Shown here in pieces: positions 57,159 to 62,372 of a DNA stretch of 64,000 nucleotides (position 1 is the first letter of the stretch; each line of letters begins with the position of its first letter). The notes below the pieces were generated by a model. It was not told the origin of the DNA and searched no databases. It saw only the letters and a list, made by a program, of their open reading frames with translations. The position numbers were made by a program, and so were the translations under genes. The DNA is from Loktanella sp. PT4BL (GTDB lineage Bacteria; Pseudomonadota; Alphaproteobacteria; Rhodobacterales; Rhodobacteraceae): the NCBI RefSeq assembly GCF_003201935.1, contig NZ_QJJL01000002.1, forward strand, positions 62,001 through 126,000, given 5' to 3'.

Positions 57159-57191
57159 ATCTGGCCTCGGAATAATATGCCCGGGGGCAGA

Positions 57192-58253
57192 ATGGCACAT
57201 CGTGTGAAAGATATCGCTGCGGCGCTGGGGGCAGAAGCCTTTGGCGCCGTTGAGCTTTTGGTCAATGGTGCGTCTGAACCCGCAAGTGCGGGCCCCGATG
57301 ATCTGGCGCTGGCCATGAGCCCCGCCTATGGCGCAGCCTTGGGGCATGGTCAGGCCCGCGTTGCTGTGGTCTGGCCCGGTGCCGATTGGCAGGCGCTGGG
57401 GCTGGAGGCCGCGATCATCGCACCGCGCGCACGGCTTGCCATGGCGCATCTGACGCAGATGCTGGATGCAGACCTGCCGCATACCGGGATCAGCCCGCAG
57501 GCGGCGATTGACCCTTCGGCGCGGATCGGGGCCAATGTGACAATCGGGGCCTTCTGCGTAATTGGTGCGGATGTTGTCATCGGCGAGGGAACCTGGATTG
57601 CCGATCATGTCAGCATCGCGCCGGGCGTGCACATCGGTGCGGCGTGTCAAATTCACGCGGGCGTGCGCCTGCAACGTGGCGTGCACCTTGGTGCGCGCGT
57701 CATCCTGCACCCCAATGTCGTGATTGGCGGCGATGGATTTTCCTTTGTAACTGCGGAACCTTCGAACGTTGAGAAGGCGCGCGAGACGTTGGGCGAGGCT
57801 GCGATGCACGCCCCTGACGATCCCACATGGCACCGGATCCATTCACTGGGCGGGGTGGTTGTTGGCGATGATGTGGAAGTGGGGGCGAATTCCTGCATTG
57901 ATGCAGGCACAATCCGCCCCACAAGGGTGGGCAATGGCACCAAGATCGACAGCCTCGTGCAGGTTGGCCACAATGTGATTGTGGGCGCGCATTGTCTGCT
58001 GTGTGCCCAGGCCGGTGTCGCGGGGTCCACAGTGATCGGCGACCGTGTGGTTGTGGGTGGCAAGGCAGGGATCGCGGATAATCTCAAAGTCGGTGACGAT
58101 GTGGTCTTGGGTGGTGGCAGTGTCGTGCTGTCCAATGTCCCAGCAGGGCGCGTGATGATGGGCTATCCCGCGACCAAAATGCAGGTCCATATCGACAGCT
58201 ACAAAGCCCTGCGTCGTTTGCCCCGTATCCTGCGCGATTTGGCGCAGCGTTAA
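57192..58253 (+). CDS. LpxD-like acyl-ACP N-acyltransferase
   Basis: A 353-residue left-handed beta-helix protein with hexapeptide repeats (IGANVTIGAFCVIGADVVIG). An N-terminal LpxD-like domain and the catalytic His region VQVGHNVIVGAHC are present. LpxD adds a hydroxyacyl chain to UDP-glucosamine in lipid A synthesis. The usual lpxD neighbours (fabZ, lpxA, bamA) are absent; an ACP and a ketosynthase follow instead. This looks like a paralogue for another acyl product. Start 57192 has a GGGGG site; an ATG at 57177 is an alternative. Confidence 0.85.
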   Translation: MAHRVKDIAAALGAEAFGAVELLVNGASEPASAGPDDLALAMSPAYGAALGHGQARVAVVWPGADWQALGLEAAIIAPRARLAMAHLTQMLDADLPHTGISPQAAIDPSARIGANVTIGAFCVIGADVVIGEGTWIADHVSIAPGVHIGAACQIHAGVRLQRGVHLGARVILHPNVVIGGDGFSFVTAEPSNVEKARETLGEAAMHAPDDPTWHRIHSLGGVVVGDDVEVGANSCIDAGTIRPTRVGNGTKIDSLVQVGHNVIVGAHCLLCAQAGVAGSTVIGDRVVVGGKAGIADNLKVGDDVVLGGGSVVLSNVPAGRVMMGYPATKMQVHIDSYKALRRLPRILRDLAQR

Positions 58254-58316
58254 TTGCCTGTTTCAAATTGCTGATAGAATGACTACATCCCCGCCAAGCA
58301 ACATGGGTGTGATAAG

Positions 58317-58577
58317 ATGAGCATCAAAGATCAGGTGATTGCAATTATAGCCGAACAGGCCATGCTGGAGCCGTCGGATATCCAGATGGAGAATACGCTG
58401 GAAGATATCGGCATCGACAGTCTCGGCCTTGTCGAGAGCATTTTTGCGATCGAAGAAACCTTTGATATTTCTGTTCCCTTCAACGCCAATGACCCGACAG
58501 CAGGTGATTTTGATATCTCGTCTGTCGCGGCAATCGTCGCCGCGGTTGAAAAGCTGAAGTCCGAGCAGGCCGCCTGA
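58317..58577 (+). CDS. Acyl carrier protein (dedicated, non-housekeeping)
   Basis: An 86-residue acidic ACP with the phosphopantetheine serine S35 in IGIDSLGLVE. The length and C-terminal Ala/Glu-rich helix differ from the housekeeping ACP (about 77 residues). Its TGA abuts the ketosynthase ATG, so the two are translated together. It likely carries acyl chains for the adjacent ketosynthase and the LpxD-like transferase. Confidence 0.88.
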   Translation: MSIKDQVIAIIAEQAMLEPSDIQMENTLEDIGIDSLGLVESIFAIEETFDISVPFNANDPTAGDFDISSVAAIVAAVEKLKSEQAA

Positions 58578-59786
58578 ATGCGGCGTGTGGTCATCACCGG
58601 GGCGGGGACGATCAATCCGCTGGGCTCCGACATGCCCAGCACACTTCTGGCGATGCAGGAAGGGCGCTGTGGCATTGGCCCGCTCGAGATCGCGGATGTC
58701 GACCGCCTTGCGATCCAGATCGGGGGGCAGATCAAAGGCTATGATGAAGGCGCGCATTTCAACCGCCAGCAAATCGCGCTTTATGACCGCTTTACGCAAT
58801 TCGCGCTTCTGGCCGCGCGCGAGGCGATTGGCCAGTCCGGTCTCACATTTTCAGGTGAGTTGGCAGATCAATCCGGTGTGATCTTTGGCACATCGGGTGG
58901 CGGGCTGAACACGCAGGACGAAAACTACCGCGCTGTCTATGAGGCGGGCAAGAACCGCGTGCACCCCTTCATTGTGCCGCGCCTCATGAATAACGCCGCC
59001 GCCAGCCACGTGTCGATCGAATGGAACCTGCGCGGCCCGACCTTTACGGTCGCCACCGCCTGTGCGTCCTCGAACCATGCGATGGGGCAGGCATTCAACA
59101 TGGTGCGTTCCGGCATGGCCAAAGTCATGGTGACAGGCGGGTCCGAGGCGATGCTGTGCTTTGGCGGGATCAAGGCGTGGGAAGGGCTGCGCGTGATGTC
59201 GCGCGACGCCTGCCGCCCGTTTTCGGCCACACGCAGTGGCATGGTACAGGGCGAGGGTGCGGCGGTTTTCGTATTCGAAGACTATGAACATGCCCGCGCC
59301 CGTGGCGCAGAGATTCTTTGCGAAGTGGCGGGTTTTGCGATGTCGTCAGATGCCTGCGATATTGTGACACCGTCCAAACAGGGCGCCGCCCGTGCCATAG
59401 GTGGCGCGCTGAAGGATGCGAAACTTCCCAAAGACTCTGTTGGCTATATCAACGCCCATGGCACGGGCACTGCGGCGAATGACAAAACCGAATGTGCCGC
59501 TGTTGCGGATGTCTTTGGCGCGCATGCGGATCAGTTGATGATGTCGTCGACCAAATCCATGCACGGGCATTTGATCGGGGGCACTGGTGCGGTCGAGCTG
59601 ATCGCCTGCATCATGGCGCTGCGCGACGGGATCATTGCGCCGACGATTGGCTATGAAGAAGCTGATCCGGAATGCGCGCTGGATGTGGTGCCGAATGTGG
59701 CACGCGAGGCGCAGGTGGATGTCGCCTTGTCCAATGCTTTCGCTTTTGGCGGTCTCAATGCGGTGATTGCGCTGCGCAAGCATTGA
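58578..59786 (+). CDS. Beta-ketoacyl-ACP synthase (KAS II-like)
   Basis: A 402-residue condensing enzyme. Catalytic triad: C162 (TACASSNHAMGQAF), H294 (NAHGTGT) and H329 (KSMHGHLIGG). It starts directly after the ACP stop. Pairing with a private ACP recalls NodE/NodF or AcpXL-type systems that make special acyl chains. It is probably not the housekeeping FabF, which normally lies beside acpP and fabD. Confidence 0.9.
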   Translation: MRRVVITGAGTINPLGSDMPSTLLAMQEGRCGIGPLEIADVDRLAIQIGGQIKGYDEGAHFNRQQIALYDRFTQFALLAAREAIGQSGLTFSGELADQSGVIFGTSGGGLNTQDENYRAVYEAGKNRVHPFIVPRLMNNAAASHVSIEWNLRGPTFTVATACASSNHAMGQAFNMVRSGMAKVMVTGGSEAMLCFGGIKAWEGLRVMSRDACRPFSATRSGMVQGEGAAVFVFEDYEHARARGAEILCEVAGFAMSSDACDIVTPSKQGAARAIGGALKDAKLPKDSVGYINAHGTGTAANDKTECAAVADVFGAHADQLMMSSTKSMHGHLIGGTGAVELIACIMALRDGIIAPTIGYEEADPECALDVVPNVAREAQVDVALSNAFAFGGLNAVIALRKH

Positions 59787-59834: not shown

Positions 59835-60431
59835 TCAGTCGGGGCTGGTTTGTGACGACGATGTGAATCCGGCGGTAAAGCCCCGCAGTGATACATCCAA
59901 TACAACCTCTGCGTCCGGTGCTGCCGCAGGAACAAGGCGGACGGTCGCGACCGAGCCGCGCTTGAATTGGTCGACTTCAGCTTGTGTAAAGCCGATCCGT
60001 GCCACACAGCCCGCGCGATTGCAGAAAGTGAACGGATAGATGCGTGCGTTCTGCCCATCCACTGCGATAGTCAGCTGTTCGGTTAAAAGCGTCTCGAGCG
60101 GCACAACCACAGTGGCCCCCGCCGCAGCGCGCTGACCTTCGGGAAGCGGGAAAAGATTGAACTCTGCAACAGCAACACCGTCTTCATTGGTCAGCAGTTG
60201 ATAGAGATTGCAGGGATCCCGCTCGCCTTCCTCGGCCTTGATGCAGCGCAGGGCCCAGTCACCGAAAACCTCACGCTCATAAGGTTCGCCGACCTGTGGA
60301 CCAAGGGGTTCACCCAGGGCAAGCCCTTCTTCGGCGGTGGTTTCCGGCTGCTCTGATGTCTCTTGTGCCAGAACCATGCCGGCGTGACCCAGCAGGGCGG
60401 CCAAGAGGGCGGATTTCAATAGACTGCGCAT
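59835..60431 (-). CDS. Invasion associated locus B (IalB) family protein
   Basis: A 198-residue periplasmic protein with signal peptide (MRSLLKSALLAALLGHAG, cleaved near VLAQ). The IalB domain includes GDWALRCIKAEEGERDPC, the paired Cys in FCNRAGCVA and a basic/hydrophobic strand pattern. Despite the name the family is widespread in free-living alphaproteobacteria. It lies downstream of RNA unit 1, which may be its leader. Confidence 0.85.
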   Translation of the reverse strand: MRSLLKSALLAALLGHAGMVLAQETSEQPETTAEEGLALGEPLGPQVGEPYEREVFGDWALRCIKAEEGERDPCNLYQLLTNEDGVAVAEFNLFPLPEGQRAAAGATVVVPLETLLTEQLTIAVDGQNARIYPFTFCNRAGCVARIGFTQAEVDQFKRGSVATVRLVPAAAPDAEVVLDVSLRGFTAGFTSSSQTSPD

Positions 60432-60540
60432 AGATTTGTTCCTCGTTCGCTTTTTGGCGGCTTAACACGGGGCGGGCAGGGTGTCAGGGGCAAAAACCCG
60501 GGACTGCGCTGGCTTCCGCTCACATTTTCGGGGGGCCAGA

Positions 60541-60606
60541 AAAGAAGAAGGGCCCCCGAAAGGACCCTGCTTCATGTTCTCCCTGTCGGACTTGGCCGAC
60601 TAATTG
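60541..60606 (-). ncRNA. Candidate small RNA or attenuated leader (unit 1)
   Basis: From the promoter at 60641-60613 the RNA would start near 60606. Hairpin 1 is GTCGG CCAAGT CCGAC (60586-60601). A stretch with ACAGGGAGAACATGAAG follows: a Shine-Dalgarno and ATG opening an 18-codon frame, MKQGPFGGPSSFSGPPKM. The terminator-like stem AGGGTCC TTTCGG GGGCCCT and TCTTCTTTTC overlap that frame. One pair is G-U on minus but C-A on plus, favouring minus-strand RNA. It may be an sRNA, or a leader of ialB. Confidence 0.5.
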
Positions 60607-60612
60607 AAAAGA

Positions 60613-60641
60613 AGTTACGAAAACAAAAAGTGACCGTCAAC
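60613..60641 (-). promoter_or_regulatory. Promoter for RNA unit 1 (minus strand)
   Basis: On the minus strand TTGACG (60641-60636), a 17-base T-rich spacer, TAACTT (60618-60613). Four to five of six bases match sigma-70 consensus at each element, with ideal spacing. Confidence 0.55.
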
Positions 60642-60689
60642 AGCAAAAATTTGACGACTTGGTGAAGACCGTTATTTCTCCGCACCACA

Positions 60690-60764
60690 AAAAAAAGCCG
60701 TGCCCGAAGGCACGGCAAGTCAAACAGGGAGGACGTATGCAATAATGCCAATCTCTGGCACGAT
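60690..60764 (-). ncRNA. Candidate small RNA with CCUCCC linker (unit 2)
   Basis: Minus-strand order: hairpin TGCCA GAGAT TGGCA (60761-60747), an open linker containing GTCCTCCCTG, then the terminator GCCGTGCC TTCG GGCACGGC with eight T (60717-60690). The UUCG loop closed by C-G and the U8 tract are textbook and work only on minus. A weak promoter TTGTTA (60799-60794), 17 bases, TAAAGC (60776-60771) is placed to start it near 60764. No protein gene lies upstream for this terminator to serve. The linker is complementary to part of unit 1. Confidence 0.55.
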
Positions 60765-60836
60765 CGCGCGCTTTAAGGTGGCACGATTTGGTTAACAATG
60801 TATTTTGCCTGATAAATTTATGCAGGGAACGCTGAT

Positions 60837-62372
60837 ATGGCTGAAAGTATCTTTATTGGTGGCGGCGGTGAGGGCTATGGCGCACCCCAAACGCTTTTGT
60901 TGGACAAGGCCAACCGGCACGGTCTGATCGCAGGGGCGACGGGCACCGGTAAGACAGTGACTTTGCAGATCATGGCCGAAGGATTTTCAGCGGCAGGGGT
61001 GCCGGTGTTCCTGTCGGATGTAAAAGGTGATCTTTCCGGTCTGGCGCTCAGCGGCTCTGCCGATTTCAAACTGCACGAACCCTTTATGTCGCGCGCACAG
61101 ACCATCGGGCTTGAGCTGCAATATGACAGCTATCCTGTGACGTTCTGGGACCTTTTCGGCGAAAAAGGCCACCCGATCCGCGCCACGGTCGCAGAAATGG
61201 GGCCTTTGCTGCTGTCACGCCTGATGGACCTGACCGATGTGCAGGAAGGCGTGCTGAACGTCGCGTTCCGCGTCGCAGACGAAGAAGGCCTGCTGCTCCT
61301 GGATCTCAAAGATCTGCAGGCTTTGCTGGTCTGGGTCGGGCAGAACGCGCAGGCGCTGTCGCTGCGTTATGGCAACGTGGCGGCCTCCTCTGTCGGCGCA
61401 ATCCAGCGGCAATTGCTGGTGCTGGAAAATCAGGGCGGTACGGCGCTTTTCGGGGAACCGGCCCTTGATCTGGCCGATATGATGCGCACCCGCGATGACG
61501 GGCGCGGCGAGATCAACATTCTGGCCGCCGATCAATTGATGGGGAGCCCGCGTTTGTACGCGACATTCCTGCTCTGGCTGCTGTCGGAACTGTTTGAGGA
61601 ACTGCCCGAGGTCGGCAACCCTGACAAACCCAAACTGGTGTTCTTCTTTGACGAAGCGCACCTGTTGTTTGACGACGCACCCAAAGCCTTGGTCGATAAG
61701 GTCGAGCAGGTCGCGCGCCTGATCCGCTCCAAAGGGGTGGGCGTCTATTTCGTCACGCAAAACCCCGGTGACATTCCTGATGATGTGCTGGGGCAGCTGG
61801 GCAACCGTGTGCAACACGCGCTGCGTGCCTTTACCGCCAAGGACCGTAAAGAACTCAAGACTGCCGCGGAAACCTATCGCGACAATCCGGCATTTGATAC
61901 TGCGGAGGCGATTCAAGAAGTGGGCACCGGTGAGGCGGTGACGTCCTTCCTGGACCGCAAGGGCATTCCGCAGATTGTCGAACGGACCCTGATCCGCCCG
62001 CCGTCGTCGCAACTGGGGCCGATTGATGAACCGACCCGCAAGGCGATCATGAGCATCTCGGATATGGCGGGTAAATATGACAAGACAATGGACCGCGAGA
62101 GCGCGTTTGAAATCCTGAGCAAGCGGGCCGACGCAGCCGCGAAAGCCGCCGAAGAGGCCGAAGCCGAAGAGGCGCGCCTTGAAGAGAAAGAGCGCGAGTT
62201 CAAGGCGGCGCGGCGCTATGACGGGGGCAGCACCCGCAAATCGTCATCCCGCAAGTCGTCCGATGAGGGTTTCGGCGACGCCTTGGCGTCTGTGGTGGTC
62301 AAGGAATTGAAAGGTACAACAGGCCGTCGTTTGGTGCGCGGCATTCTGGGTAGTCTGTTTAAAGGGCGGTAG
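60837..62372 (+). CDS. HerA/YjgR-type P-loop ATPase (DUF853)
   Basis: A 511-residue ATPase. Walker A is [12 protein letters not shown] and Walker B is [16 protein letters not shown]. The conserved [13 protein letters not shown], and the arginine and sensor region [32 protein letters not shown] (in two parts), place it in the YjgR branch. The C-terminal 100 residues are a charged Ala/Glu coiled coil and a Ser/Arg-rich linker. HerA relatives act on DNA; the job of YjgR is not established. It starts 16 bases after an AT-rich stretch. Confidence 0.9.

Follow-up and report, generated by a model that had tools for sequence, protein, structure and literature searches.

RNA sponges are already known, and among them is one directed against RNAs of the alphaR8 type. 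The sections of PMC12559287 that deal with it describe CrfA of Caulobacter crescentus as a sponge of the alphaR8 siblings SisA-D, which share the core UUUCCUCCCU, and state that an N-formylglutamate amidohydrolase gene adjoins most alphaR8 RNAs. In the passages of PMC6238624 on the small RNAs (sRNAs) SorX and SorY of Rhodobacter sphaeroides, SorX is derived from the 3' UTR of an OmpR-like gene and takP is given as a target of SorY, whilst the corresponding part of PMC8625941 names a spermidine transporter mRNA as a target of SorX.

The window analysed here, a 64,000 nt stretch of the Loktanella sp. PT4BL genome, contains an intergenic region (60432-60836) lying between a gene for a HerA-like ATPase (60837..62372, plus strand; 744 bits against Pfam HerA_C) and an ialB-type gene (59835..60431, minus strand; 122 bits against Pfam IalB). 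Its minus strand holds two short terminated units: unit 2, whose divergent upstream neighbour is the HerA-like gene, and unit 1, downstream of which, and outside the pair, lies ialB. Beyond ialB, at 57177-59786 on the plus strand, is a row of open reading frames that we take to resemble a hexapeptide-repeat acyltransferase, an acyl carrier protein and a ketosynthase.

Unit 2 (60689..60762, minus strand, with a putative 5' end) was assigned through Rfam and our model R1 as a candidate SorX/SorY/alphaR8-type small RNA, the third such sibling in the genome. It carries an anti-Shine-Dalgarno core, CUCCCUGUUUGACUU (60717..60731), which is kept in relatives, and an intrinsic terminator (60689..60716) detected by a terminator search, comprising an 8-bp stem (60716-60697) and a T-run, with compensatory changes in relatives. 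A TTAACC..TGCCA motif (60779..60795, minus strand), a possible promoter or regulator site, lies upstream and recurs in 93 of 119 related loci, around 50-65 nt from the core. Unit 1 (60540..60605, minus strand) is a short terminated non-coding RNA of about 66 nt and a proposed sponge, represented by a covariance model, R2; its 5' end is placed from a promoter at 60612..60640, composed of TTGACG (60640-60635), a 17 nt spacer and TAACTT (60617-60612), in a layout shared by relatives. Comparison with relatives and the fold predicted in the window both give a 5' hairpin, GTCGG-CCAAGT-CCGAC (60585..60600), which overlaps a segment (60579..60598) found by sequence comparison to be complementary to the core of unit 2 and to the SorX/SorY-type siblings; a terminator stem-loop (60549..60568), again detected by the terminator search, is followed by TTCTTCTTTT. 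The view that these are two separate minus-strand RNA units, each with a terminator, is supported, unit 1 having a promoter of its own as well.

No family reaches its gathering score when the region is scanned with Rfam. The best match of unit 2 is to SorX (RF02784), at 32.8 bits (E = 5.9e-5 for 8001 bases) against a gathering score of 46.6, followed by suhB/mmgR (RF00519) at 24.8 bits, where the gathering score is 41, and SorY (RF02651) at 24.5 bits; four linked relatives of unit 2 score 28.9-37.8 bits with the SorX model. The 63.8-bit match of unit 2 to R1 is not independent, as this model was built from 49 unit 2 relatives with the window sequence among them. Applied to the Loktanella genome, R1 gives three full-length matches above 35 bits, namely unit 2 itself and two further loci, L191 and L192; no other match exceeds 25.6 bits, and most of these weaker ones cover the terminator region. 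Next to L191 is a response-regulator gene of the OmpR type (winged C-terminal domain), whilst L192 precedes a purL-type gene encoding AIR synthase domains; against SorX the two loci score 75.1 and 59.7 bits respectively. These two loci correspond to SorX- and SorY-like sRNAs.

The single-stranded alphaR8 10-mer UUUCCUCCCU matches the window sequence, CGUCCUCCCU, at eight of ten positions and the consensus of the relatives, CUUCCUCCCU, at nine, and this stretch of unit 2 is largely unpaired in the predicted fold. It is preceded by a weak hairpin, assessed in the window only, and followed by a Rho-independent terminator. By eye, the loop of the upstream hairpin reads TGTCCTC in many relatives, a second anti-Shine-Dalgarno-like stretch that the window lacks. 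The amidohydrolase linkage typical of most single-copy alphaR8 members is absent, the neighbours of unit 2 being the HerA-like ATPase and IalB. Unit 2 resembles SorX and SorY in its core, CCUCCCUGUU.GACUU, and its terminator, but differs from SorX in scoring below the cut-off, in its place in the genome (it is divergent from HerA, whereas the copy adjoining the response-regulator gene is L191) and in having at core position 10 a base left unpaired by unit 1. Similarly, it has in common with MmgR/suhB, the alphaR8 family of Rfam, a CUCCCU core behind a weak hairpin and a terminal terminator, but not the score nor the adjoining amidohydrolase gene. Given the shared core and terminator, the R1 matches and the SorX and alphaR8 literature, unit 2 appears to be a third member of the SorX/SorY/alphaR8 sibling set, though it lies under both Rfam cut-offs. 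This kinship, the two better-fitting siblings and the Caulobacter sponge CrfA had all been overlooked in the preliminary description of the locus.

The distribution of unit 1 was studied in loci fetched by means of ialB, one per genus, 150 of the 192 IalB-matching genomes being used, among the matches listed. With a search pattern allowing one substitution, which could hide the unit in at most five of the 150 loci, 145 of these loci, all from the family of the window, have unit 1 upstream of ialB and in the same orientation. Two of the five genomes without it at ialB carry it elsewhere (G141, at locus L014, and G149, at L311). The R2 model detects unit 1 in 170 of 198 genomes of the family at E values up to 0.001; G060 is scored as unit 1-free by this model, yet the motif search finds the unit there. 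In a sample of 289 genomes from the class, R2 has 13 matches, of which the four at 51.8-63.0 bits are all within the family, and the nine outside it score 26.8-30.1 bits. The exact pattern, which misses the AAGTC form of the window itself, occurs in 11 of 385 class-sample genomes. Two of these belong to the family; seven of the nine others were inspected by eye, and none has a terminator behind the match. A scan of genome contigs by pattern returned 23 stretches. Rfam offers no family for unit 1, only a chance-level match to sbrA.

Most genomes bearing unit 1 have a single R2 match. More than one is seen, among the matches listed, in G174, G179, G038, G127 and G197, and in G176 an additional unit 1, complete with terminator, lies away from ialB (L031, 1462-1541, minus strand), accompanied by no convincing unit 2.

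A promoter of the form TTGACN(16-18)TANNNN precedes unit 1 in 144 of the 145 loci, with a 17-nt spacer in 141, and the same layout was found in none when a control stretch 120-180 nt upstream was searched. The preliminary description had given each unit a promoter-like pair: a generic sigma-70 scan finds neither, and that of unit 1 is upheld by this comparison. The five standard pairs of the 5' hairpin are formed in 144 of the 145 loci; in an alignment of 50 of the 145 sequences (A1, which, like the alignment A2 of 49 of 111 unit 2 sequences, was selected by us for spread), no pair is broken and three of the five have changes on both sides. The information per position is 1.0-2.0 bits through the final G of GGGAG, drops to 0.75 one base further on and is at most 0.6 thereafter, so that conservation falls directly after the complementary block. 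Over the 145 loci, unit 1 has no conserved reading frame. The small open reading frame once proposed to have its Shine-Dalgarno sequence masked by pairing was consequently rejected, as an ATG lies 3-12 nt past GGGAG in only 26 of the 145 loci, in frames without common sequence.

In the window, the complementary arms make up a 19-nt inverted repeat (60576-60594 and 60716-60734) with 84% complementarity. Aligned with a gap over CGG(C)CAAGTC..ACAGGGAG, they have 17 Watson-Crick matches, two mismatches and one bulged base, close to the 18 of 21 matches plus one extra base reported at 60577-60598 and 60715-60735, where the arms are indeed located; in the RNAs, the two mismatches correspond to a G.U pair and to C.U. 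The local complementarity score between the units, 15, is equalled in two of 2000 dinucleotide shuffles of unit 2. A stricter ungapped score taken over the entire intergenic region is less striking, being equalled in 26 of 200 shuffles, and the energy of the duplex between the complete units is equalled in nine of 500. It is the conservation of the arms in other genera that raises the finding above chance; the sequence of the window alone would be insufficient.

Unit 2, for which the search pattern allows four edits, can be recognised in the 360 nt upstream of unit 1 at 125 of the 145 loci; one of these (L040) was judged spurious, leaving 124 linked pairs for analysis and 21 loci in which no unit 2 was recognised in this interval. 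Of 15 further loci picked from model matches, 14 have a same-strand unit 2 upstream, the exception being L313.

Pairing was recounted with the letters left free, using the 94 of the 124 unit pairs that have an ungapped core. Fourteen of the fifteen core positions pair in 84-94 of these loci; the exception is unit 2 position 10, opposite an invariant C of unit 1, which pairs in 13. At unit 1 position 2, with at least 24 changes, seven of the 94 loci are unpaired, and a pair is lost in individual loci at positions 5, 7, 8, 10 and 15. The rare exceptions are an A at position 9, an A at position 8 and a C at position 6 of unit 2 (94 loci) and a C at position 8 of unit 1 (145 loci). The other 30 of the 124 unit 2 cores have an insertion or deletion in or beside the core, most of them at positions 9-11, adjoining the unpaired base.

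These changes were counted on a tree of HerA fragments, which covers 127 of the 145 loci and includes 87 of the 94 ungapped pairs. Positions 8, 9 and 10 of unit 1 changed at least 16, 5 and 20 times respectively, always among pair-keeping letters, and position 9 of unit 2 changed at least 14 times over the 87 loci, always in such a way that a standard or G.U pair is preserved; by comparison, the unpaired position 10 of unit 2 takes all four letters, with at least 20 changes. As positions 8 and 9 of unit 1 also lie in its own stem, the clean evidence comes from position 10 of unit 1 and position 9 of unit 2, which together changed at least 34 times. A preference for purines in a Shine-Dalgarno-like stretch, or for pyrimidines in an anti-Shine-Dalgarno-like one, could explain part of this pattern.

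The association of AAGTC with GACTT, and of CAGTC with GACTG, looks strong by raw count. On the HerA tree (83 rows), however, the C/A-G/T switch amounts to two changes in unit 1 and seven in unit 2; the supported branches yield a single independent pair, and for this reason the association is not taken as proof. Independently repeated base-pair switches were accordingly rejected, the two forms reflecting mostly one old switch. Conservation of the arms across relatives, named as a condition in the preliminary description, is borne out, whereas strong covariation is not. The mean duplex energy of the 124 cognate pairs is -36.4 kcal/mol, against -18.3 kcal/mol for mononucleotide shuffles of unit 2, and is slightly better than that of swapped partners (-35.9 kcal/mol; 0 of 5000 permutations, with kinship ignored); since both units were found by motif, these energies serve as a description and not as an independent test.

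As a rule the unlinked siblings fit unit 1 better than unit 2 does. In 22 unlinked siblings from 21 genomes, taken non-randomly from listed high-scoring matches, CCTCCCTGTTGGACTK is present in every case, its position 10 being a G that pairs with unit 1, and in 17 of the 20 cases having both, the predicted duplex with unit 1 is stronger for the unlinked sibling than for the linked sRNA. Complementarity of 15-20 nt between unit 1 and all three siblings is conserved. By count alone, the T/G choice in the 22 siblings tracks unit 1, with T in seven of seven against five of 15 (Fisher, 0.005), SorX and SorY types being mixed in this comparison. The pair is also carried by R. sphaeroides 2.4.1, with unit 1 at approximately 1,426,598-1,426,516 on the minus strand of chromosome I and the core of unit 2 close to 1,426,727 on that strand; this genome was recognised by the position of SorY, 1,632,645 here and 1,632,642 in the relevant part of PMC6238624. 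The predicted duplexes there are -43.3 kcal/mol for SorY with unit 1 and -36.0 kcal/mol for the linked unit 2 with unit 1.

Unit 1 and the siblings also tend to occur together. At a cut-off of E 1e-6, with absences taken from the matches listed and eight genomes assigned as the remainder, a solid match to unit 1 is missing in 12 of 13 genomes without a solid alphaR8 match, against 23 of 185 with one, kinship and genome completeness being ignored. More lenient cut-offs give a co-occurrence table of 169/23/1/5 (Fisher, 2e-4). Of the 23 genomes that lack unit 1 and have a sibling, one (G060) is a miss of the model, and more may be.

We consider it probable that unit 1 is a stand-alone, trans-acting sponge, or decoy, of unit 2 and of the unlinked SorX- and SorY-like siblings. 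The target/sponge pairing in trans originally suggested, with CCUCCC of unit 2 opposite GGGAG of unit 1, is consistent with the comparative data, and conserved complementarity to what would be the seed of regulatory sRNAs is the property expected of a sponge. Unit 1 would present GGGAG as a mimic of the Shine-Dalgarno sequence, beside a hairpin whose loop fits the linker of the sRNA (ACUGG/ACUU). First contact at the mimic or the loop would spread into a long duplex between unit 1 and the sRNA, masking the CCUCCC core and keeping the sRNA from its mRNAs; decay of the sRNA would probably follow, and the mRNAs repressed by the siblings would thereby be freed. The complementarity and the structure in this scheme are supported by comparison, whilst binding, decay and any involvement of Hfq or of an inducing signal are inferred.

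Control might instead run in the opposite direction, unit 1 being itself a trans regulator and unit 2, or the whole sibling set, its target or sponge. Pairing is symmetric, and the single R2 match of most unit 1-bearing genomes would suit such a regulator, but it is the siblings that own the anti-Shine-Dalgarno core and have known mRNA targets, and what is conserved in unit 1 goes no further than a stretch complementary to that core and the hairpin partner of this stretch; we regard this reversal as unlikely. Somewhat less probable still is that unit 1 forms an attenuated 5' leader of ialB, as an mRNA target of the siblings. Its same-strand position upstream of ialB in 145 of 150 loci would favour such a role, though these loci were selected by ialB, and it is countered by the terminator preceding ialB, by the variable distance between the two and by the second copy elsewhere in G176. 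Furthermore, in both G141 and G149 the pair adjoins HerA with ialB displaced: a 351-aa reading frame on the opposite strand intervenes between unit 1 and ialB in the former, and in the latter there is no ialB match within the 1801-base stretch. Hence unit 1 is not simply a leader of ialB.

The arms are on the same strand, complementary and approximately 120 nt apart, such that they could in principle pair in cis within a transcript reading through the end of unit 2, as an antiterminator or processing stem. Pairing in cis, raised in the preliminary description, is countered by the promoter that unit 1 has of its own, between the arms, in 144 of 145 loci, as well as by the strong terminator of unit 2 and the usually better fit of the unlinked siblings to unit 1, and we think it very improbable. 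Just as little weight can be given to the complementarity being a by-product, without functional contact, of a Shine-Dalgarno-like GGGAG and hairpin in unit 1 and an anti-Shine-Dalgarno sequence in unit 2. GGGAG will indeed fit any anti-Shine-Dalgarno sequence and there is no repeated covariation, but the match runs past the Shine-Dalgarno-like stretch through the stem and loop of the hairpin in the 94 ungapped pairs, with the paired positions constrained and the unpaired position free.

An earlier report of unit 1 was not found in the open-licence papers searched, and neither was a family-wide, sibling-linked sponge candidate joined with SorX and SorY. In the same papers none of six core strings appears, SorX and mmgR are nowhere treated together, the R. 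sphaeroides position of unit 1 is not mentioned, and nothing retrieved on RNA sponges together with R. sphaeroides sRNAs relates to the pair; the portion of the Paracoccus sRNA tables covered (PMC5107571) has no entry that could be mapped to the locus. Were the sponge reading correct, SorX and SorY, which are stress sRNAs in Rhodobacter, would both come from a single set of siblings, and the third member of that set would have next to it the gene of an antagonist devoted to the set. A more ambitious version, which we put forward tentatively and think rather doubtful, is that unit 1 represents a new, family-wide class of sponge unrelated to CrfA, which restrains SorX, SorY and unit 2 and, being linked to the sibling that usually has the mismatch at position 10, distinguishes its neighbour from the others and so sets the order in which they are silenced.

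The closest described counterpart is CrfA, and the best reading by analogy is that unit 1 would work as CrfA does. Both are small RNAs with a G/A-rich stretch that, for CrfA in the sections of its description used here and for unit 1 by prediction, covers the CCUCCC core of an alphaR8 sibling set. However, unit 1 adjoins one of its presumed target sRNAs; it would pair through the 5' hairpin and the stretch after it, whereas CrfA is described in those sections as pairing by its second stem loop; and strong R2 matches in the class sample are confined to the family of the window. Taken together with CrfA, a sponge role for unit 1, if true, would make sponges against alphaR8 RNAs seem to recur in the Alphaproteobacteria.
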